A stretch of 64,000 bases of DNA from contig NZ_SCUT01000045.1 of the NCBI RefSeq assembly GCF_004297265.1, positions 124,001 to 188,000 on the forward strand. The letters are read 5' to 3'. This document shows, one piece after another, positions 25,474 to 35,078 of the stretch. The notes under the pieces were generated by a model. That model was not told the origin of the DNA and made no database searches. It saw only the letters and a program-made list of their open reading frames with translations. The DNA comes from Reyranella sp. Its GTDB lineage: Bacteria > Pseudomonadota > Alphaproteobacteria > Reyranellales > Reyranellaceae. A program made the position numbers and the translations under genes. Position 1 is the stretch's first letter; every line of letters begins with the position of its first letter.

Positions 25474-25496
25474 GGGCTATTCATTCAGACCTTTGC
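25462..25496. terminator. Bidirectional hairpin across two convergent stop codons
   Basis: GCAAAGGTCTGA (25462-25473) and TCAGACCTTTGC (25485-25496) are perfect 12-bp inverted arms around an 11-base loop. The plus-strand stop TGA of the MFS gene closes the left arm, and the minus-strand stop of the PuuE-like gene lies in the loop at 25477. It has no long T-run, so its strength as a terminator is uncertain. Confidence 0.6.
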
Positions 25497-26400
25497 CCGG
25501 ATAGGGATGAGTGGCGAGCCAGTGCCTGGCGATGTCGAGGCGCTTGGTGACCCAGACGCCCTGATGCTTCTGGACATAGTCGAGGAAGCGCCAGAGGCCC
25601 GCCATGCGGGCGGGATGGCCGATCAGGCGCTGGTGCAGGCCGACCGACATCATCTTGGGCTGCGTCGAACCCTCCTTGTAGAGGACGTCGAACGCGTCCT
25701 TCACCAGGCCGAACCATTGTTCCGAGTGGACCATGCCGGCGGCATACTTGCCGTCGTTGTTGGTCAGCGAATAGGGGACGATGAGGTGCGGCTTGCCCTC
25801 GACGGTCTGCCAAAAGGGCAGCTCCTCGCCGTAATAGTCGCTGTCGTAGGTGAAGCCGCCTTCCTCGATCAGCAGCCGGCGCGTGTTCACGCTGGGTCCA
25901 TAGCGGCAGTACCAGCCGGCCGGCCGCTCGCCGACCGTCTGCTCCAGCGACTTGATCGCCTTCCGGATATGGTCGCGCTCCTCCTCTTCGGAAAGCTGGA
26001 AGTGGCGCACCCAACGCCAGCCATGACAGCAGACGTCCCAGCCGGCGGCCCTGATCGCCTGTGCGGCCAGCGGATTGCGCTCCAGCGCCAGGGCGCACCC
26101 GAACACGGTGAGCGGCAAGCCACGCTCCTGGAAGGCGCGATGTATGCGCCAGAAGCCGACCCGGCTGCCGAACTCGAACATGCCTTCGCCGGCGAGGTCG
26201 CGGCCCTTCAGCCCCTGCGAGGAGGTGCTCGATTCGGTGAGGCCGGTCTCGGTGTAGCCCTCTCCGTCCTGGACCGACGGCTCCGAGCCTTCCTCGTAGT
26301 TGACGACGAAATTGATGGCGATGCGCGCGCCGCCGGGCCATTTCGGATCGGGCGGGTTGGGGCCGTAGCCGATCAGGTCTCGTGTCGGTTGCCAGCTCAT
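25477..26400 (-). CDS. puuE: PuuE-type allantoinase (polysaccharide deacetylase fold), copy 1
   Basis: 307 residues, matching PuuE allantoinases that open the allantoin ring without metal. Diagnostic stretches are RDLIGYGPNPPDPKWPGGAR, NYEEGSEPSVQDGEG, CCHGWRWV, WYCRYGPSVNTRRLL and YYGEELPFW. The ATG at 26400 has GAGGAGA upstream and overlaps the end of the preceding 110-residue gene by 4 bases, implying translational coupling. It is a close paralogue of the gene at 26741. Each could serve a different ureide; allantoinase is assigned from family resemblance only. Confidence 0.87.
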   Translation of the reverse strand: MSWQPTRDLIGYGPNPPDPKWPGGARIAINFVVNYEEGSEPSVQDGEGYTETGLTESSTSSQGLKGRDLAGEGMFEFGSRVGFWRIHRAFQERGLPLTVFGCALALERNPLAAQAIRAAGWDVCCHGWRWVRHFQLSEEEERDHIRKAIKSLEQTVGERPAGWYCRYGPSVNTRRLLIEEGGFTYDSDYYGEELPFWQTVEGKPHLIVPYSLTNNDGKYAAGMVHSEQWFGLVKDAFDVLYKEGSTQPKMMSVGLHQRLIGHPARMAGLWRFLDYVQKHQGVWVTKRLDIARHWLATHPYPGKGLNE

Positions 26401-26729
26401 GCAGGTCTCCTCACCAGTTCGGCGCCCATCTGACGGGCGATGTCGGCAATCTTGTCGTTCCAGGTGCGCATCGAGAGGGTACGAACCCCGGCGCGCAGGC
26501 AGGCGAGCGCGTAGCCCGGCGCGTCGCCGCAATCGACGATCAGCGTGAAGGCCACGTCGGGGAACTCTTCTCGCGCCCGTTCCTGCAGGGCGCCGAGATA
26601 TCCCGCGCCATAGAACGAGGCGGCATCCTCAGGCGTCAGCAAGACCGGCGCCGTACCCGAGGCGCGCGCAGCGAGCAGCGCCGCCTCGGTCTGCTTCCAG
26701 TCGCGCACCACGATGATCTCGTCTGCCAT
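26397..26729 (-). CDS. Unrecognised 110-residue protein between two puuE copies
   Basis: 110 residues, no family recognised. It starts MADEIIVVRDWKQTEAALL and contains VTLIVDCGDAPGYALACL-like hydrophobic beta-alpha alternation (residues about 60-80), looking like a small alpha/beta domain. No signal peptide or membrane helix is present. It begins 11 bases after the upstream puuE copy ends and overlaps the next one by 4 bases, so it is translated as part of the operon. Codon use looks like its neighbours. A regulatory or accessory role in ureide catabolism is inference from position alone. Confidence 0.7.
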   Translation of the reverse strand: MADEIIVVRDWKQTEAALLAARASGTAPVLLTPEDAASFYGAGYLGALQERAREEFPDVAFTLIVDCGDAPGYALACLRAGVRTLSMRTWNDKIADIARQMGAELVRRPA

Positions 26730-26740
26730 GACGCGCGATA

Positions 26741-27670
26741 TTACTCATTCAGCCCCTTCCCCGGATAGGGATGGGTCTTGATCCAGTGGCGCGCAATGTC
26801 GAGGCGGCGGGTCACCCAGACGCCCTCGTGCTTCTGGATATGGTCGAGTAGCCGCTGCAGGCCGACGGCGCGTGCGGGATGGCCTATCAGGCGCATGTGC
26901 AGGCCGATCGACATCATCTTTGGCTGCGTGGCGCCTTCGCGGTAGAGCATGTCGAAGGCGTCGCGCACGAAGGAGAACCACTGGTCCGAGGTGCCGATGG
27001 AGGCGGCGAACTGGCCGTCATTGTTGGTGACGGAGTAGGGCACGACGAGTTGTGGCTTGCCTTCGACAGTCACCCAAAAGGGCAGCTCCTCGCCGTAATA
27101 GTCGCTGTCGTAGAGGAAGCCGCCTTCCTCGACCACGTGGCGGCGCGTGTTCACGCCGGGTCCATAGCGGCAGTACCAGCCGAGCGGCCGCTCTCCGGTC
27201 ATCTTCTGGATGGCCGCGATCGCCTTGCGGATGTGCTCGCGCTCGGTCGCCTCGTCGAGCTCGTAGTGCTTGATCCAGCGCCAGCCGTGCGAACAGACGT
27301 CGAAGCCCGACTTGGCGATGGCCGCCGAGGCTTCGGGATTGCGTTCCATGGCAAGCCCGCAGCCGAAGATCGTCATCGGCAGGCCGCGTTCCTGGAAGAG
27401 CCGCATCAGCCGCCAGAAGCCGACCCGGCTGCCATATTCGAACAGGCTTTCGGCGGCGAGATCGCGGCCCTGGATCGACTGGCCCATGCGTGCCGCATCA
27501 CTGAGGCCGATCTCGGTATGCCCCTCGCCGTCCTGGATCGAGGGCTCCGAGCCCTCCTCATAGTTCATGACGAAGTTCACGGCGATGCGCGCACCGCCGG
27601 GCCATTTCGGATCGGGTGGATTGGCGCCGTAGCCGATGAAATCGCGGCGGACCTCGTAAGGCATCGTCAT
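26741..27670 (-). CDS. puuE: PuuE-type allantoinase, copy 2
   Basis: 309 residues with the same architecture as the copy at 25477: RRDFIGYGANPPDPKWPGGAR, NYEEGSEPSIQDGEGHTE, CSHGWRWI, WYCRYGPGVNTRRHV and YYGEELPFWV. The C-termini of the two copies are nearly identical (ending HPYPGKGLNE), so they come from a duplication. The ATG at 27670 is followed by another ATG two codons later. The start is 10 bases after the ureidoglycolate lyase stop. The pair allantoinase plus AllA makes an allantoin-to-glyoxylate route likely. Confidence 0.88.
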   Translation of the reverse strand: MTMPYEVRRDFIGYGANPPDPKWPGGARIAVNFVMNYEEGSEPSIQDGEGHTEIGLSDAARMGQSIQGRDLAAESLFEYGSRVGFWRLMRLFQERGLPMTIFGCGLAMERNPEASAAIAKSGFDVCSHGWRWIKHYELDEATEREHIRKAIAAIQKMTGERPLGWYCRYGPGVNTRRHVVEEGGFLYDSDYYGEELPFWVTVEGKPQLVVPYSVTNNDGQFAASIGTSDQWFSFVRDAFDMLYREGATQPKMMSIGLHMRLIGHPARAVGLQRLLDHIQKHEGVWVTRRLDIARHWIKTHPYPGKGLNE

Positions 27671-27680
27671 TGGCTCAGGA

Positions 27681-28154
27681 TCAGGGAATGCGGACGGTGA
27701 AGGGCGGCACCGGCACGAATTCCTCGTCGCCCTTGCCGCCGTCGCGCCACATGAAGACGGCGAAACGGCCCGGCCGGTCGAGCACGGTCAGGCCGTGATG
27801 CCAGGTGTCGGGCCGGTAGGTGACGCCCTGCTTGCCGGTGGCGATGAAGGCTTTCATGCCGCTCACGTCGGGACCGCCCGCGGCGGCATGCGGCGCCACG
27901 ACGATCAGCCAACGCTCGACATCGAGGGGAACGAAGGTCTGGGAGGAAAATTCGTGGCGCTCCAGATAGTCGCTGCGCAGCGGCCGGTCGGCCGTCTCGG
28001 CTTTCAGGCTGACCGACAGGCTGGCATGGGCGGTCGGGCGCAGGTTGCCCAGCGCGTCCTCGTAATAGGTGCGGCCCGGAGAGTCGGGCACGTCGATCAC
28101 GTCACCGAACGGGGCGAAGGCTTCCCCGGTGAGGGGCTGGGGGATCAGTTCCAT
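27681..28154 (-). CDS. allA: Ureidoglycolate lyase
   Basis: 157 residues, near the usual 160 for AllA, which cleaves ureidoglycolate to glyoxylate and urea. It starts MELIPQPLTGEAFAPFGDVID, and the cupin-like core contains WLIVVAPH and YRPDTWHHGLTVLD, whose His residues belong to the active-site region. It lies 13 bases after the permease stop and 10 bases before puuE copy 2. It is the strongest pathway marker in this locus. Confidence 0.92.
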   Translation of the reverse strand: MELIPQPLTGEAFAPFGDVIDVPDSPGRTYYEDALGNLRPTAHASLSVSLKAETADRPLRSDYLERHEFSSQTFVPLDVERWLIVVAPHAAAGGPDVSGMKAFIATGKQGVTYRPDTWHHGLTVLDRPGRFAVFMWRDGGKGDEEFVPVPPFTVRIP

Positions 28155-28167
28155 TGGCGGGTCCTCG

Positions 28168-28995
28168 TCAGTCGCGCATGCGGCGGGTCAGTCCCACCGT
28201 CCATTCCATCACCAGCATCAGCAGGAAGGCGGCGGCGATCAATACTCCCGACACGGCGGCGATGCGCGGGTCGAGCGTGGACTCCATCATGCCCCACATG
28301 CGGATGGGCAGCATGTCGGTGCGCGCCGTCGACAGGAACAGCGACACGGGCACGTTGTCGATCGACGCCATGAAGGCCAGGAACGCCCCGGCGAAGATGC
28401 CGGGCGCGATCAGCGGCAGGGTCACGCGGCGCATCGTGTAGAGCCAGCTCGCGCCCAGGCTCTGCGAGGAATCGTTCAGCGCCGGGTCGAGCTGCGAGAT
28501 GCTGGCGGACGTCGTGCGAATGATGAACGGCACGGTCACGATCATGTGGCCGGCGATGATCAGGTTCAGCGACGGCCGGAAGCCGATCAGGGTGAAGTAC
28601 ATCAGCGCCGCCAGGCCGAAGGTGAGGCCGGGCAGCACCAGCGGCGACATGAAGAGCCCGTCGGCGACGCGCGCCAGCCTGTGGCGGTTCCGCGCCAGCC
28701 CAAGCGACGCCATGCTGCCGAACAGGATGCCGAAGCCGGTCGACCAGGCGGCTACTTCGAGCGAGTTATAGACGGCGCGATGGATCTGCCTCGACTGGGA
28801 GGCGTCGAACAGGGCTTCGTACCATTGCAGGGAGAAGCCGGTCGGCGGGAACTTGAGCGAGCGGCCTTCGGTGAAGGATGTGGTCAGTACGATCACCACC
28901 GGTGACACGATGATCAGCAGCGCCAGCGTGGCCAGGGTGCCGATCACGAGACTGTACGAAAGATCGCCGAGGCTGCGACGCCTACCCATGGACAT
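28168..28995 (-). CDS. ABC transporter permease, PotC-type (ureide locus)
   Basis: 275 residues with about six membrane helices starting at residues 15-36. It contains KFPPTGFSLQWYEALFDA and a coupling loop NDSSQSLGASWLYTMRRVTL near residue 174. It overlaps the end of the PotB-type partner gene by 14 bases. It is the second channel subunit of the importer encoded at 28168-32040. By gene context the cargo may be allantoin or a related ureide, whereas the transporter family generally takes polyamines, iron chelates or amino-acid-like compounds. Confidence 0.88.
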   Translation of the reverse strand: MSMGRRRSLGDLSYSLVIGTLATLALLIIVSPVVIVLTTSFTEGRSLKFPPTGFSLQWYEALFDASQSRQIHRAVYNSLEVAAWSTGFGILFGSMASLGLARNRHRLARVADGLFMSPLVLPGLTFGLAALMYFTLIGFRPSLNLIIAGHMIVTVPFIIRTTSASISQLDPALNDSSQSLGASWLYTMRRVTLPLIAPGIFAGAFLAFMASIDNVPVSLFLSTARTDMLPIRMWGMMESTLDPRIAAVSGVLIAAAFLLMLVMEWTVGLTRRMRD

Positions 28996-29863
28996 AGCCT
29001 CCGGAACGGCGGCCCAGGTAGGAGAGCGCGCTCACCACGGTCAGCACCGAGACCAGCAGCGTGAGCGACACCACGGCGGCGAAGGGCCAGTTGAAGACGA
29101 CCAGCGACTGTTGCCAGATCAGCAGCGGCAGATAGATCAGGCGGACGCCGCCAATCACGGTCTGCGAGATGAAAGCGGTCGTCGAGCTTGCGAACACCAG
29201 CAGGCAGCCCGCGACCAGGCCGGGCATGCTGAGCGGCACAATCACCTTGAACAGGGTGCGCCAGCGCGAGGCGCCGAGGGCGGACGAGGCGTCGCGCAGA
29301 TTGGGGTCGAGCCGCGACATCACGCTGATCAGCGGCAACAGCATCAGCGGCATCTCGATCTGGGTGAGCGAGATCACGAGGCCGAGCTCGGTCTGCAGCA
29401 GGCGCAGCGGCTCGGAGATGATGCCGAGCTGCAGCAGCAGCGTGTTCACGACGCCCTCGCGGCCCAGCACGACGATCCAGGCGAAGGTGCGGACCACCAC
29501 CGAGAGCAGCAGCGGCATTACGATGATGAAGATCAGCACCTTCTGCAGGCGTGGCGAGGCATCGAGGTAGATCAGCGCCAGCGGATAGCCGATTACTATG
29601 GTGGCGCAGACGGTCTTGATACCCAGCAGCATCGTGTCGGCGATCACCTTGTAGCTGAAGGGATCGCCCAGGAATTTCACCCACTGGCCGATGCCGGGCT
29701 GGGTGATCTTGTCGTCATTGAAGAAGCTCACTCCGACCAGCATCACTAGCGGTGCGAGGAAGATCGACGCAAAGGCCAGCGCGAGCGGCAGCGCGAGCTG
29801 CCACTCGGCCAGCGGCAGTTTTCGCCGGGGGCGCGCCACTCCCGTGGCGCGTTCAGGAGTCAT
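28982..29863 (-). CDS. ABC transporter permease, PotB-type (start lies in an inverted repeat)
   Basis: 293 residues from the ATG at 29863; a GTG at 29878 is also in frame. Six helices begin at about residue 20, and the coupling loop RDASSALGASRWRTLFKVIV is present. The first dozen codons (ERATGVARPRRK) are written by a 26-bp inverted-repeat arm, so the native N-terminus appears to have been replaced or extended by the repeat. No Shine-Dalgarno is visible for either start, because that position is also repeat sequence. It overlaps the next permease by 14 bases. The core looks intact, so it is probably functional. Confidence 0.85.
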   Translation of the reverse strand: MTPERATGVARPRRKLPLAEWQLALPLALAFASIFLAPLVMLVGVSFFNDDKITQPGIGQWVKFLGDPFSYKVIADTMLLGIKTVCATIVIGYPLALIYLDASPRLQKVLIFIIVMPLLLSVVVRTFAWIVVLGREGVVNTLLLQLGIISEPLRLLQTELGLVISLTQIEMPLMLLPLISVMSRLDPNLRDASSALGASRWRTLFKVIVPLSMPGLVAGCLLVFASSTTAFISQTVIGGVRLIYLPLLIWQQSLVVFNWPFAAVVSLTLLVSVLTVVSALSYLGRRSGGYVHG

Positions 29864-29895
29864 GAGAAGACGCGCCACGGGAGTGGCGCGCCCCC
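29827..29895. repeat. Perfect 26-bp inverted repeat, REP-like, across a gene start
   Basis: Arms 29827-29852 and 29870-29895 are exact reverse complements around a 17-base spacer. Each arm is itself a near palindrome (GCGCCACTCCCGTGGCGC inside it). The spacer holds the ATG of the PotB-type permease. Its self-complementary nested design resembles REP/BIME-type dispersed elements rather than an insertion sequence end. No target-site duplication is obvious. Confidence 0.85.
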
Positions 29896-29906: not shown

Positions 29907-30926
29907 TCACTTCGCCATTTCCTTGTTGAACTTCTCGATCCAGCCGGCGCGCAGCGGATTGATCTTCGCCCAGTCGTGGCGGACGTAGCTCGACATCTCG
30001 TCGAGGCTCTTCATCGGCAGGTAGGACGGGACCGGGACGTCCTTGTTGACCGGGATGAAGTTGTACGGCGGCTTGGTCAGCGCCTCCTGCACTTCCTTGC
30101 CGGCGACGATGTCGAGATACTTGTAGGCGTTCTCGACTTCCGCGGCGCCCTTGGCGATGTGCAGGGTCGTGAGGAAGGTGATGGCGCCTGTCTCCGGCTT
30201 CACGAACTCGATGTCGACGCCGCGGCCCTTGAGCGTCGCGACGGTCTGGGTGTTGGTGTAGATCACATCGCACTGGCCCTGCTGGAACAGGCCGGGCATG
30301 GCGGCGGGCTGCCCGACCGCGGCAATCTTCGGCAGGACCTTCTTCAGCTCGACGAGCGCCGGCTCGATGTTGGTCTCCGAACCGCCGAATACCTTGGCGA
30401 TCTCGATCAGCGACACCGTGCCGAACGTGGTCTGGAAGCCGGTGATGCCCAGCCGCGAGACCCAGGGATCGGTGAACAGGTCCTTCCAGCCCTTGGGCGC
30501 CGGCAGCTTCTTGGGATTGTAGGCGATGCCCACGACCTGCGCGTTGACGCCGATGCCCCACTCGTCGACCAGGCCGGCCGGCAGCTTTGAGGCGTTGCTG
30601 ATCTTCTTGACGTCGATCTTGTCGAACAGCCCGTCCTGGATCGCGGTGATGCGCGGTCCTGGATCGAGCACAAAGGCATCGAACGGCGGCGCGCCGCGCG
30701 CGGCCTTGGCCTTGGCGACCTGGTCGACGGCGAAAAGTGGCTGGAGCTCGAGGTCGACGCTGTCCTTCTTCTTCAGCGCCGGCACCACGATGGCGCGGAA
30801 GGCCTCTTCCCAGGTGCCGGGATAGATGGCGGCGGCGACGCTGCCCTTGGCATGGGCGATCGAGGGAAGGAGCGAGGCGCCGCCGAGGGCGGTGGCCCCG
30901 GCGAGCAGGCGTCTGCGGCTGAACAT
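29907..30926 (-). CDS. ABC transporter substrate-binding protein, spermidine/iron type
   Basis: 339 residues. A twin-arginine-like signal MFSRRRLLAGATALGGASLL ends at about residue 28 with IAHA. The mature protein looks like the extracellular solute-binding family 1/8 that serves PotABCD or Fe(III) importers (YPGTWEEAFRAIVVPAL, DAFVLDPGPRITAIQDG, YTNTQTVATLKGRGV). The ATG at 30926 has GGAGAG upstream. It sits between the ATPase and permease genes, so the importer is complete. Polyamine-specific residues cannot be checked by eye. Confidence 0.9.
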   Translation of the reverse strand: MFSRRRLLAGATALGGASLLPSIAHAKGSVAAAIYPGTWEEAFRAIVVPALKKKDSVDLELQPLFAVDQVAKAKAARGAPPFDAFVLDPGPRITAIQDGLFDKIDVKKISNASKLPAGLVDEWGIGVNAQVVGIAYNPKKLPAPKGWKDLFTDPWVSRLGITGFQTTFGTVSLIEIAKVFGGSETNIEPALVELKKVLPKIAAVGQPAAMPGLFQQGQCDVIYTNTQTVATLKGRGVDIEFVKPETGAITFLTTLHIAKGAAEVENAYKYLDIVAGKEVQEALTKPPYNFIPVNKDVPVPSYLPMKSLDEMSSYVRHDWAKINPLRAGWIEKFNKEMAK

Positions 30927-30945: not shown

Positions 30946-32040
30946 TCAGGTGGAACGCGGGAACAGCGTGGGACGCGCATCGGCGGCCAGCGAGCAGTAG
31001 GTGCGGTCCGCATCGGCCGCGGCCGCGCGGCGTGGCTCGATGATCTTCAGAACCGTGCCGTCGATCGCACGGGCCTCGTGGACGAGCTGCGCGCCAATCG
31101 GCAGAGCCAATCCCGGTTCGATCTTCCAGGCCTCGGGGCCGGGAACTGCGCAGAGCGCGAGTTGCTCGGGTCGCACCGACATCAGCACGGCCGTTCCGAC
31201 ACCAAGGCCGGCAGGCGCGGGCAGGGTGAGCGTGGCCCCGGCATCCAGGGCGACGGTTGCCGTGCCGTTTTGGCGGGAGGTGACCCTGCCGTTCATCAGG
31301 TTGGTGGTCCCGATGAAGCCGTTGACGAACAGCGTCTGCGGCTTGTCGTAGATCGACACCGGCGTATCGAACTGCTCGACCTTGCCCCTGTTCATGACGG
31401 CGATGCGGTCGGCGACGCTCATCGCCTCGTCCTGGTCGTGCGTCACGAGGATGGTCGTGAGGCCGAGCGTCCGCTGCAGGCGCTTGATCTCGATCTGCAT
31501 GTCGAGGCGCAGGTTGCGATCGAGCGCGGCGAACGGCTCGTCGAGCAGCAGGATCGAGGGTTCGATGGCGAGCGCACGCGCCAGCGCCACCCTCTGCTGC
31601 TGGCCTCCCGAGAGCTGGCGTGGCAGGCGCTCCTTGAAGCCGCCGAGCTGGACGGTCTCGAGGAAGCGCGAGACCCTGGCCTGGATTTCCGGACCCCTGA
31701 CGCCGCGGGCACGTAGGCCGTAGGCGACGTTCTCCGCCACCGTCATGTGCGGGAAGAGCGCGTAGTTCTGGAAGACGATGCCGATGTTGCGCTGGTTGGA
31801 CGGCAGGTGGTCGATGGTGGCGCCGTCGACGCGCACGCGGCCCGCTGCCTGCCGCACGAAGCCGGCGATGACCCTGAGCAGGGTGGTCTTGCCGCAGCCC
31901 GAGGGCCCGAGCAGCGCCACGACCTCACCAGGCTCGATGGCAAGCGTCACACCGTCCACGGCGGTCGACGTTCCATAGCGGACGCTCAGATCCTCGACGT
32001 CCAGCGAGCGCGCTGCGTTGACTTTCAATGCTTCGGGCAA
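30946..32040 (-). CDS. ABC transporter ATP-binding protein, PotA-type (TTG start)
   Basis: 364 residues. Walker A GPSGCGKTT, the signature LSGGQQQRVALARAL and Walker B LLLDEPFAALD are all intact, followed by the switch His in LVTHDQDEAM. A TOBE-like C-terminal region occupies about residues 250-364. No ATG fits before the conserved start. The TTG at 32040 has GGGAGG eight bases upstream and avoids overlap with the preceding gene, so it is chosen. It powers the importer made with the next three genes. Confidence 0.9.
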   Translation of the reverse strand: MPEALKVNAARSLDVEDLSVRYGTSTAVDGVTLAIEPGEVVALLGPSGCGKTTLLRVIAGFVRQAAGRVRVDGATIDHLPSNQRNIGIVFQNYALFPHMTVAENVAYGLRARGVRGPEIQARVSRFLETVQLGGFKERLPRQLSGGQQQRVALARALAIEPSILLLDEPFAALDRNLRLDMQIEIKRLQRTLGLTTILVTHDQDEAMSVADRIAVMNRGKVEQFDTPVSIYDKPQTLFVNGFIGTTNLMNGRVTSRQNGTATVALDAGATLTLPAPAGLGVGTAVLMSVRPEQLALCAVPGPEAWKIEPGLALPIGAQLVHEARAIDGTVLKIIEPRRAAAADADRTYCSLAADARPTLFPRST

Positions 32041-32098: not shown

Positions 32099-33013
32099 TC
32101 ATGCCGGAAACTGCTCGCGCCACGATTGCGCAATGTCATCGCGCCGCGCGATCCACACTTTGCTGCCGTAGGATTCGAGCAGCGTGAGCACGCGCTTGAA
32201 GGCGGCGAAGCGGCCGGGACGGCCGGCGATGCGCAGGTGCCAGCCGATGTTCAGCAGCTTGGGATGGCCGGCTTCGCCTTCCTCCATCAGCGTCTCGATG
32301 GCGTCGCGCACGTAGTCGACCATCTCGTCCGCGCGCACGAAACCGTTGGGATGGAAGAACTTCATATCGTTGCTGTCGAGCGCATAGGGAACGACGAGGA
32401 GAGGGCGCCGCGCATCCGTCCGGTCCCAGTAGGGCAGGTCGTCGTCGAAGCCGTTGCTGGCATAGAAGAAGCCCAGTTCGCGCAGGATCGATCGCGTCTC
32501 GCGGCTTTCGCTGCCGCGGCAGAAAAACCCGGCAGGACGCTGGCCTGTCGCGCTTTTCATGACGTCGACGCAGCGCCTGAGATCGGCCAGTTCGCTTTCT
32601 CTGTCCGCGTATTCTGCATGCGCACGCCACAGCCAGCCATGGCACGCCGCCTCGTGTCCGGCCTCGACAATCCGACGGGCGAGGTGGGGCAGGCGCTCGA
32701 CAGCACGACCGCACATGTAGAAGGTCGCGGGCATCCGGTGCTTATCGAGCGCGGCCAGCATGCGCCAGATACCGGCACGCATGCCGTAGGCGAAGATCTG
32801 CTCGTTGCCCTGGTCCCAGCGTCCGGGCGGCACCACGCTCACCACCTCGGAGATCTTCTCGGCCTGCGGATCGCCGTCGCTGACGGCGAGCTCCGCGCCT
32901 TCCTCGAAATTGACCACCATCGAGACGGCGAGGCGGGCCCCGCCGGGCAGCTTCCAGGCCGGCGGTGTCCCGCCATAGCCCACCAGGTCGCGCTTCTGGC
33001 TCACGCCTTGCAT
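32099..33013 (-). CDS. Polysaccharide-deacetylase-family hydrolase, divergent PuuE paralogue
   Basis: 304 residues of the NodB/PuuE fold, more distant from the other two copies. Visible parts are RDLVGYGGTPPAWKLPGGAR, NFEEGAELAVSDGD, AACHGWLWRAH, GFFCRGSESRETRSIL and FDDDLPYWD. The ATG at 33013 has GGAGG seven bases upstream. It is the first gene of the minus-strand run and is controlled from the divergent region with the twin palindromes. It probably attacks a related amide or ureide ring; the exact substrate is open. The gap to the ATPase is 58 bases. Confidence 0.83.
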   Translation of the reverse strand: MQGVSQKRDLVGYGGTPPAWKLPGGARLAVSMVVNFEEGAELAVSDGDPQAEKISEVVSVVPPGRWDQGNEQIFAYGMRAGIWRMLAALDKHRMPATFYMCGRAVERLPHLARRIVEAGHEAACHGWLWRAHAEYADRESELADLRRCVDVMKSATGQRPAGFFCRGSESRETRSILRELGFFYASNGFDDDLPYWDRTDARRPLLVVPYALDSNDMKFFHPNGFVRADEMVDYVRDAIETLMEEGEAGHPKLLNIGWHLRIAGRPGRFAAFKRVLTLLESYGSKVWIARRDDIAQSWREQFPA

Positions 33014-33029
33014 GTCGTCCTCCAACAGG

Positions 33030-33060
33030 ATGTGCACATTTCTTGACGTTATGTGCACAT
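33030..33060. promoter_or_regulatory. Twin ATGTGCACAT palindromes, candidate GntR operator
   Basis: Two identical 10-bp palindromes at 33030-33039 and 33051-33060 are 21 bp apart start to start, which puts them on the same face of the helix. They fill the 72-base region between the divergent deacetylase and amidohydrolase genes. The GntR/FCD regulator gene at 34356 is the natural binder. A TTGACG hexamer (33043-33048) lies between them, so binding would block a promoter there. Confidence 0.7.
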
Positions 33061-33085
33061 AATTTTACCAACCACCGGCAGACCC

Positions 33086-34366
33086 ATGACCGAACTCCAC
33101 CGCGACCTCGATCCTGAAACGGCCCTGGCAGGCCGGTGGTTCGAGCATCTGCGCTCGCATTCCGGGGGCCGCCTCGGCGTCACCCGCGCGTCCTACGGCG
33201 AGGGCGAGCAGATGGCGCATGACCTGATGCAAGGCATTGGCCAGACGCTGGGACTGGAGGTGCGCACCGATGCCGCCGGCAACCTCTACGTGACCTTGCC
33301 GGGGCGGGACCGTTCCTTGCCTGCCATCATGACGGGGTCGCATCTCGATTCGGTACCGGAGGGCGGCAACTACGACGGCGCGGCGGGTGTGGTCGCCGGC
33401 ATGGCGATGCTGGCGCGCTGGCATCGCGCCGGCCGCCGCCCGAAGCGCGACATCACCGTGATGGGCGTGCGCGCGGAGGAGCTGTCGTGGTTTCCCGCGC
33501 CCTACATCGGCAGTCGCGCCGCTTTCGCCCTGCTGGAACCCGAGGCACTCGATCGCTGCCGGCGTCCCGACACCGGGCGGACGCTGGCGGAGCACATGGA
33601 CGAGGCGGGCTTTGCACCCGACCGCATTCGCGCCCGCGAGCGCCAGCTCGATCCGGCGCGCATCGCCTGCTTCCTCGAACTCCACATCGAGCAGGGACCG
33701 GTGCTGGTGCAGCGCGGGCTGCCGGTCGGGATCGTCACGGGAATCCGCGGCAACCTCCGCTATCGCGATCCGCACATCGTCGGCCGCTACGGTCATGCCG
33801 GCGCCGAGCCGCGCCTCTCGCGCAACGACGCGGTGATGGCCGGCGTCGAATTCGTGTCGCGACTGGAGGCGCTGTGGCTCGAGCACGAGGCGGCGGGAAA
33901 GGATCTCGTCTGCACGGTCGGCCAATTCCACACCGACACCGCCGTGCACACGATGACCAAGATTCCGGGCGAACTCTGGTTTTCGATGGATATTCGCAGC
34001 GAGGACAACGAAGTGCTGCTCGCGATCGACCGGCGGCTACGCGAAATCGCGGCAGAGATCGGCGCACGGCGCGGCGTCGCGATCGATCTCGGCGCCTTCA
34101 CCAACGCGAAGCCGGGCCCGATCGACCCCGGTCACCGCGCGCGGCTCGAACGGCTGGCGAAGGAACTGGGCATTGAGGCGCTGCCGATGGCGAGCGGGGC
34201 GGGCCACGATGCGGCAGTCTTTGGTATCATGGGGGTACCGACGGCAATGATCTTCATCCGCAACGACCACGGCAGCCACAATCCCGACGAGGCGATGGAC
34301 CTCGCCGATTTCGCGCAGGGCCTGCGGTTGCTGGTGGCTACCGTGGAGGAGATGGATGCCGCGTAA
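33086..34366 (+). CDS. M20-family Zn amidohydrolase (allantoate or N-carbamoyl-amino-acid type)
   Basis: 426 residues of the AllC/HyuC/beta-ureidopropionase group. Metal-site stretches TGSHLDSVPEGGNYDGAAGV (about residues 80-99) and ELHIEQGPVL are present, as is the C-terminal IRNDHGSHNPDEAMD. Enzymes of this group hydrolyse allantoate or carbamoyl amino acids. In this locus allantoate would be the product of PuuE and the AllA substrate would follow, so allantoate amidohydrolase is likely but not proven. The ATG at 33086 is chosen; a GTG at 33053 would place the start inside the operator. Its end overlaps the regulator gene by 11 bases. Confidence 0.88.
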   Translation: MTELHRDLDPETALAGRWFEHLRSHSGGRLGVTRASYGEGEQMAHDLMQGIGQTLGLEVRTDAAGNLYVTLPGRDRSLPAIMTGSHLDSVPEGGNYDGAAGVVAGMAMLARWHRAGRRPKRDITVMGVRAEELSWFPAPYIGSRAAFALLEPEALDRCRRPDTGRTLAEHMDEAGFAPDRIRARERQLDPARIACFLELHIEQGPVLVQRGLPVGIVTGIRGNLRYRDPHIVGRYGHAGAEPRLSRNDAVMAGVEFVSRLEALWLEHEAAGKDLVCTVGQFHTDTAVHTMTKIPGELWFSMDIRSEDNEVLLAIDRRLREIAAEIGARRGVAIDLGAFTNAKPGPIDPGHRARLERLAKELGIEALPMASGAGHDAAVFGIMGVPTAMIFIRNDHGSHNPDEAMDLADFAQGLRLLVATVEEMDAA

Positions 34367-35078
34367 GCCGAGGAAGGGCGACGTCGCCGCCGACGAGGCG
34401 GTCTATGGTGCGATCCGGCGCGCGATGCACATGGGCCGCCTCACGCCCGGCACCAAGCTGCAGGAGCCGGCACTGGCACGCGTGCTCGGCGTCAGCCGCG
34501 AGCGCGTGCGCAAGGCGCTGCACCGGCTGGTGCACGAGGGCTGGCTGACCGCGATCCCCAACCGAGGCACCTTCGTGCCGTCGCTCACGGTCGAGGAGAT
34601 GCGCGAGATCTATGACGTGCGCTCGATGCTGGAGGCGGCGATCGTGCGACGGCTCAGCGAGGGCCATACCACGGCCGCGGCGAAGCGCCTCAAGGCGCAT
34701 GTCGCCGAAGAGAAAGCGGCCACCCGCCGAGACGATCGCGGCCGTCTTTTCGAGCTGTCGGGTGAGTTCCACGTCCTGCTGGCCGAACTCTGCGGCAACG
34801 AGGAGCTGACGCGCCTGCTGCGTGGCCTGCTGACGCGCTCCACCATGCACTTCTCGCTGGCTGCGCCGCGCCAGCTCACCAATTGCGCCGGCCCGCACGA
34901 CCATGGCGACATCGCCGAGGCGATCCTGGGCGGCAGAGCGGACAGGGCCGCGAAGCTGATGCTCGGTCACCTGGCGGGCCTGGTGACGATGCAGGCGGCG
35001 CGCCCGCCCCAGCATGAACCAATCGATCTTCCGCAAGCCTTCCGCGGGATCAAGGCGCGGCGACCGGAGCGCGACTGA
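34356..35078 (+). CDS. GntR-family transcriptional regulator (FCD domain)
   Basis: 240 residues. An N-terminal winged helix (about residues 8-72) shows KLQEPALARVLGVSRERVRKAL and GWLTAIPNRGTFV. A C-terminal all-helical FCD ligand domain (about 80-220) begins EEMREIYDVRSMLEAAIVRR, and later has SGEFHVLLAELCGNEELTRLL and HGDIAEAILGGRADRA, whose His/Asp residues fit the metal/ligand site. It overlaps the amidohydrolase gene by 11 bases, so it is co-translated. It probably controls the divergent ureide operons through the palindromes at 33030-33060. Confidence 0.9.
   Translation: MPRKPRKGDVAADEAVYGAIRRAMHMGRLTPGTKLQEPALARVLGVSRERVRKALHRLVHEGWLTAIPNRGTFVPSLTVEEMREIYDVRSMLEAAIVRRLSEGHTTAAAKRLKAHVAEEKAATRRDDRGRLFELSGEFHVLLAELCGNEELTRLLRGLLTRSTMHFSLAAPRQLTNCAGPHDHGDIAEAILGGRADRAAKLMLGHLAGLVTMQAARPPQHEPIDLPQAFRGIKARRPERD

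Follow-up and report, generated by a model that had tools for sequence, protein, structure and literature searches.

Two identical copies of the 10-bp palindrome ATGTGCACAT, located at positions 33030–33039 (site 1) and 33051–33060 (site 2) of the window (the whole 64,000-nucleotide stretch of Reyranella DNA that was analyzed), probably constitute a composite operator of the GntR/FCD regulator encoded at 34356–35078 on the forward strand. At this operator, touching dimers of the regulator on the same face of the DNA would block both arms of a divergent gene cluster until they are released by an effector. As given in the preliminary description, the two palindromes are identical and recur with a period of 21 bp, with the hexamer TTGACG (33043–33048, forward strand) between them.

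The palindrome by itself is not over-represented: the complete genome of 6,020,389 bases contains two copies of ATGTGCACAT, with ~1.6 expected from the base composition, and at least two matches to the 10-mer, with one mismatch allowed, appear in 28 of the 100 shuffles of the window. The pairing of the copies is of a different order. The expected number of ATGTGCACAT pairs at a set distance is <1e-6 genome-wide, and of the 126 perfect 10-bp palindromes that the window contains, no other two are identical and within 100 bp of each other. The genome-wide search proposed in the preliminary description returns only the two sites of the twin in the 6.02 Mb, and it is not a matter of chance that these only copies share a single promoter region at a distance of 21 bp. 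The reality of the twin palindromes is settled by their conservation in 38/38 orthologous loci (see below).

The genes on both sides of the twin comprise a putative cluster for the breakdown of nitrogen-rich ring compounds. The left arm (reverse strand) starts with deaA (32099–33013), which encodes a PuuE-like hydrolase of the polysaccharide deacetylase family, and continues with the genes for a PotA-like ABC transporter ATPase (30946–32040; none of the NCBIfam matches shown reaches its cut-off), an ABC solute-binding protein (29907–30926), PotB-like (28982–29878) and PotC-like (28168–28995) ABC permeases (both matches below the cut-off), a protein of the ureidoglycolate lyase family (27681–28154; PF04115, 117 bits, above the cut-off) and two more PuuE-like hydrolases, deaB (26741–27670) and deaC (25477–26403). 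The first gene of the right arm (forward strand) encodes an M20 family Zn-dependent amidohydrolase of the allantoate amidohydrolase/carbamoylase type (33086–34366; NF009527, 478.6 bits, cut-off 461); also in this arm lies the gene of the regulator that is proposed to bind the operator; this protein consists of a GntR winged helix-turn-helix domain (PF00392, 62.2 bits, cut-off 27) and an FCD domain (PF07729, 74.9 bits, cut-off 24.3). The products of deaA, deaB and deaC score 291, 403 and 393 bits, respectively, below the 424.6-bit cut-off for the PuuE allantoinase (TIGR03212), and the only PuuE match in the genome that exceeds this cut-off (441.6 bits; G000:C23:234775-235659, L395) lies outside the window, so that the three hydrolases may act on another ring compound. 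The ‘ureide' label attached to this promoter in the preliminary description fits the gene set. Judging from the gene content, the common theme of the cluster and its relatives appears to be the opening of cyclic ureides of one kind or another. Among the partners in related clusters is an Asp/Glu/hydantoin family racemase (L074, L251). An AtzD/TrzD-type ring-opening amidohydrolase replaces the PuuE-like gene across the operator in one Ferrovibrio genome (L117:256-1389), hinting at cyclic ureides other than allantoin.

The link between the twin and the regulator was tested by their co-occurrence within the genus. Among the 65 Reyranella genomes searched, an ortholog of the regulator (E ≤ 1e-40) is found in 38 (20/37 and 18/28), and a twin, i.e. 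two TGTGCACA separated by 8–18 bp (period of 16–26 bp), is found in exactly the same 38 genomes, one in each and always with a 13-bp gap, which corresponds to the 21-bp period. The remaining 27 genomes, some of which are incomplete (60–89%), contain neither the regulator ortholog nor the twin, and the reversed-control motif gives no matches in this search; in the good-quality genomes of the genus, the twin is present in 29 of 44. Absence of the palindrome from orthologous regions had been named as grounds for abandoning the operator, and the opposite is observed: the twin is kept at each of the 38 orthologous loci. The 8-bp cores of sites 1 and 2 are invariant in all of these, and the 13-bp spacers between the cores come in 26 different versions, with a mean of 6.0 differences per 13 positions in pairwise comparisons; in the window, the stretch between the 10-mers (33040–33050) accordingly has a fixed length and a changing sequence. 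The constant inter-site distance amid changing DNA that characterizes cooperative double operators is thus 21 bp in 38/38 loci.

The gene order around the twin is less constant. In the 20 type I loci, which share the order of the window, the hydrolase gene always (20/20) lies between the site and the regulator, and deaA is seen on the other side in 15, the other five having a short flank in the test. The 18 type II loci lack the hydrolase; a distance of 42–99 bp separates the site from the regulator, and the transporter ATPase is directly across the site in 18/18. The operator keeps its middle place and follows the regulator through the gene rearrangements. The proposal, made from the window alone, that the regulator at 34356 owns the sites is borne out by the matching presence and absence in 65/65 genomes, by the sites beside homologs in other genera and by a recognition-helix signature (both discussed below), and on this comparative evidence, the regulator very likely binds the twin sites.

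The regulon appears to be narrow. The genome contains 12 TGTGCACA (5 for the reversed control), 10 of these outside the twin site. In nine of the 10, one flank or both are without A/T, and the only one flanked by A/T on either side (L384) lies within predicted reading frames, the frame calls being crude; by the same crude calls, two single sites (L383 and L385) may fall between genes. No second twin is found in the genome at spacings of 16–26 bp. A larger regulon was considered and rejected on these grounds. Because the outlying TGTGCACA lack the A/T flank or lie inside reading frames, the regulon probably consists of this one promoter, with further single, weaker sites possible.

Beyond the genus, the twin still tends to accompany the regulator. 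In 385 genomes of the class, scanned with spacings of 12–42 bp allowed, TGTGCACA pairs are found in 15 genomes (3 for the reversed control). Six of these pairs adjoin the regulator or a homolog, with spacings of 21, 21, 21, 21, 22 and 38 bp, and the other nine are not beside the regulator and include none at 21 bp, i.e. all 4 genomes with a 21-bp pair have the regulator next to it. A scan of 84,980 species for an A/T-flanked twin at exactly 21 bp yields 81 stretches, 80 of which were examined; in 43 of these, Reyranella included, the regulator, the hydrolase or the PuuE-like gene of the cluster is located near the twin. Outside Reyranella, the regulators of Ferrovibrio and Rhodoplanes are 40–47% identical to that of the window (61% in one Ferrovibrio), those of Burkholderiales, where the twin is at the head of the regulator operon with the 21-bp spacing, are 38–44% identical, the same spacing is also seen beside the regulator in UBA7691, and one more regulator-linked twin is apparent in a larger stretch of Hydrogenophaga.

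The other 37 of the 80 twins have no cluster genes nearby, as judged by tblastn with three cluster proteins (E ≤ 1e-3), a search that could miss a distant FCD protein; one of these loci (L078) was found to carry the regulator further away. Ten of the 37 were looked at and set aside, and some of the twins lie inside genes. Such cluster-less 21-bp twins of TGTGCACA, for example, those in Macrococcus, are what would be expected if a different or global transcription factor read the palindromes and the regulator were merely a neighbor. The chance of this is slight in the extreme, given the co-occurrence in the genus (38/38 vs 0/27), the persistence of the site with the regulator when the neighboring genes differ, and the lack in the genome of a second twin or of ATGTGCACAT in a second place, which would be expected for a global factor.

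Several loci depart from the simple twin. A third TGTGCACA is located 81–83 bp from the twin, approximately four times the 21-bp period, in Ferrovibrio, Rhodoplanes, UBA7691 and two further genomes (L177-L180, L195, L196; also L257-L260). One of the genomes with a third site (L258) has 22 bp in place of 21, the sites in L256 are spaced by 38 and 172 bp, and some relatives (L251-L254, L265, L284, L301) keep only one exact site. Among five Glu-Arg loci with one exact site, a weaker second site lies at exactly 21 bp in three and at 23 bp in one, with none in L301, against a background of 0.00085 weak sites per position. Given these single-site and other-spacing relatives, the 21-bp distance is not required by every relative. 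In three species of Macrococcus/Macrococcoides (L093, L131, L142), twin ATGTGCACAT at 21 bp is present with no cluster genes near; the flanking genes are presumably topA-like and trmFO-like, the names being taken from the protein starts.

The twin is also tied to a particular recognition helix. In the alignment of 124 FCD loci (with at least two places entered twice, under different handles), Glu-Arg at residues 49–50 (window numbering; codons at 34500–34505 on the forward strand, recognition helix SRERVR) is found in 47/47 loci with at least two TGTGCACA; the 67 loci that differ at these residues include one with a single site and none with two TGTGCACA. Within 1.5 kb, ten Glu-Arg rows show at most one exact site. 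Six of these (five places) have their exact twin further off, where the operon starts; in three, the exact site is accompanied by a weaker one at a distance of 21 bp, and in the last one, L254, by a weak one at 23 bp. In the tree, which was built by a quick method with 28 of the 124 rows left out, 27 of the 29 Glu-Arg rows belong to one clade (SH-aLRT 96) and two lie elsewhere, one of these on a long, uncertain branch; the concentration of the 27 rows in one clade suggests that the association with Glu-Arg has one or two origins, not many. The relatives of one outlying Glu-Arg row have matches in 39 of the 82 genomes of its own order. Homologs from plasmids (4 of 74 records) have other helices and no twin site.

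A second clade combines the same helix with distant sites. The best 30 of its 39 loci (L261-L290) all encode SRERVR and have at least one TTGTGCACAA 44–117 bp upstream (30/30); at least two TGTGCACA are present in 28 of these 30, with the pair 207–219 bp apart in 25. By its sequences, this is a different architecture built on the same core, and the 207–219 bp distance suggests DNA looping rather than side-by-side binding.

In the mechanism proposed for the window, one regulator dimer would bind each 10-bp palindrome, the 21-bp center-to-center distance, equal to two helical turns, would bring the two dimers to the same side of the helix, and dimers so placed could touch and aid each other's binding. 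Site 2 lies in the presumed promoter of the hydrolase and the regulator, and the pair is just upstream of the transporter/hydrolase arm, so that the bound pair would block both arms along with the regulator's own gene. A compound of the pathway would cause the release; the inferred ureide effector is probably a small carboxylate that originates from a cyclic ureide. Both cooperativity and repression are plausible, if unproven. In FadR-type divergons, two sites at a nearly constant distance are known and have been interpreted as controlling both operons cooperatively (Suvorova, Korostelev and Gelfand 2015, PMC4494728). With its unvarying 21-bp period, its variable spacer and its location between the two arms, the present pair fits this constant-distance class, consistent with a single cooperative unit acting on both arms. 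The same regulator could instead bind the palindromes independently, each serving the nearest arm, with no contact between the dimers, which is unlikely. Double sites controlling the respective own operon are the larger class among the FadR-type divergons that include the regulator gene (71 of 100 in the same survey), and the sites 207–219 bp apart in the second clade imply that related proteins manage with no close pairing; independent sites, however, should drift in spacing, whereas 21 bp is maintained in 38/38 loci with spacers that differ at ~6 of 13 positions.

The promoter elements between the arms are weak. TTGACG could serve as the −35 element toward the hydrolase and the regulator only if the weak −10-like hexamer TACCAA (33066–33071, forward strand), 17 bp after TTGACG, is the −10 element; the ACCA part of TACCAA is largely conserved in the type I loci. 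TTGAC is present in the spacer of 17 of the 20 type I loci vs 1 of the 18 type II loci and, accordingly, is part of the type I promoter, not of the operator. A standard scan of positions 32900–33200 for sigma-70 promoters and for terminators finds neither, so that the promoter presumed to be blocked is a tentative one. Overlapping or flanking weak elements in this manner, with no strong promoter found, is how a pair of sites would be arranged at an activator-dependent promoter, where the regulator would be an activator, or switch between repression and activation, rather than a plain repressor. This is quite improbable, considering that site 2 falls between TTGACG and TACCAA, the only −35/−10-like pair seen toward the hydrolase, which is a position typical of a repressor, and that Atu1419 and NanR, the characterized regulators discussed next, are described as repressors released by effectors. 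A composite operator for a repressor is retained as the preferred reading.

The kind of system proposed here is known, since paired FadR-type operators have already been described (PMC4494728). Like the double operators of that survey, the present one combines a FadR-type regulator with a GT-N2-AC palindrome placed centrally between divergent arms, one of which contains the regulator gene; unlike in the parts of the survey considered here, the operator belongs to this particular regulator group, its GTGCAC center recurs after exactly 21 bp, and the helix of the regulator carries Glu-Arg. The rule for FadR-type operators is that GT and AC are 2–3 nucleotides apart, and ATGTGCACAT conforms to it. 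One regulator with such an operator, HpxS, belongs to purine/ureide use. It is listed with a 2-nucleotide spacing between GT and AC (PMC4494728), in agreement with the spacing here, which is the only feature compared, and could represent the same or a related group.

Among the individually studied regulators, Atu1419 of Agrobacterium fabrum is an FCD protein that binds the 10-mers ATGTATACAT (ATGT-NN-ACAT) at repeated sites in or near promoters, with Arg45 of the recognition helix reading the G of GT, and forms a tetramer for which DNA looping between two sites 190 bp apart has been proposed (PMC7797058). The regulator of the window resembles Atu1419 in being an FCD protein with repeated 10-bp palindromes. 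The two differ in the center of the palindrome, which is AT in ATGTATACAT vs GC here, and in the helix, which is SRTPVR in the group of PDB 6z74 vs SRERVR here. The protein in 6z74 is taken to be Atu1419; the residue numbers agree. The three histidines of the FCD metal site are conserved in 57/57 Glu-Arg rows, and the position four residues before the first of these is occupied by Ser (54) or Ala (3), compared with Asn in Atu1419. NanR of Escherichia coli is a GntR-type repressor whose dimers bind neighboring repeats cooperatively and need a defined spacing (PMC8012715). Binding of neighboring dimers at a defined spacing is likewise proposed here, with the cooperativity suggested by the arrangement of the sites. 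NanR is described as binding direct GGTATA repeats as three dimers, with cooperativity that involves an N-terminal extension of 32 residues (PMC8012715); the sites here are, in contrast, perfect palindromes, and the GntR domain match starts at residue 14. In the searchable text of the open-access literature, which leaves motifs in figures and supplements outside the search, there is no match for ATGTGCACAT, or for TGTGCACA together with GntR, and neither the regulator clade nor its GTGCAC pair is found. The result is a well-supported regulator–operator pair for a GntR/FCD clade of alpha- and betaproteobacteria and its cyclic-ureide-type clusters, in which the effect of a fixed two-turn spacing is open to study in a natural setting.

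The Glu-Arg signature bears on a broader, more tentative proposal, namely, that the residue at HTH position 39 (Glu49) sets the central base pair of the palindrome: Glu, GTG-CAC; Thr, GTA-TAC; Ala/Val, GTC-GAC; Pro, GTT-AAC. There is some reason to entertain this rule and rather more to doubt it. HTH position 39, numbered from FadR Ser7, has been reported to correlate with the central nucleotides (PMC4494728), and Thr46 is among the conserved DNA-contacting residues in the Atu1419 study (PMC7797058). Numbering from FadR Ser7 puts position 39 at residue 46, and the counterpart of Glu49 of the window in the alignment with the 6z74 protein is residue 46, a Thr. When perfect NGTNNACN palindromes within 350 bp upstream are counted in the 124 loci, Glu goes with TGTGCACA in 59/64, Thr with GTATAC in 16/18, Ala/Val/Met with GTCGAC in 10/11 and Pro with GTTAAC in 2/2; control stretches taken from within the genes in the rows without Glu contain 2 palindromes in all.

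The rule was fixed before it was tested on 88 new loci, 3 of which were dropped as near-copies. In the new loci, Thr goes with GTATAC in 19/25 vs 1/11 for all other residues (Fisher p 0.0003, with relatedness not corrected), Glu with GTGCAC in 1/1 and Ala/Val/Met with GTCGAC in 3/4; no Pro row with a palindrome is found among these loci. A strict rule is ruled out by the exceptions: 5 of the 25 Thr palindromes are GTGCAC and one is GTTAAC, Gly occurs once with GTGCAC, and Met once with GTTAAC. In view of these exceptions, the relationship is a tendency, not a law. Should this dependence of the central base pair on the helix residue be confirmed, protein sequences could serve as a guide to operators throughout a very large regulator family, and the operators of many uncharacterized FCD regulators could be predicted, with the Glu-Arg clade and its 21-bp pairs as the clearest example.

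The FCD loci compared here also include a group with the helix SRVPVR. With the exception of L378, which belongs to this group and has no TCGTCGACGG palindrome, a conserved TCGTCGACGG palindrome is located 92–110 bp upstream of the regulator gene (L025, L027, L028, L030-L032, L368, L381).
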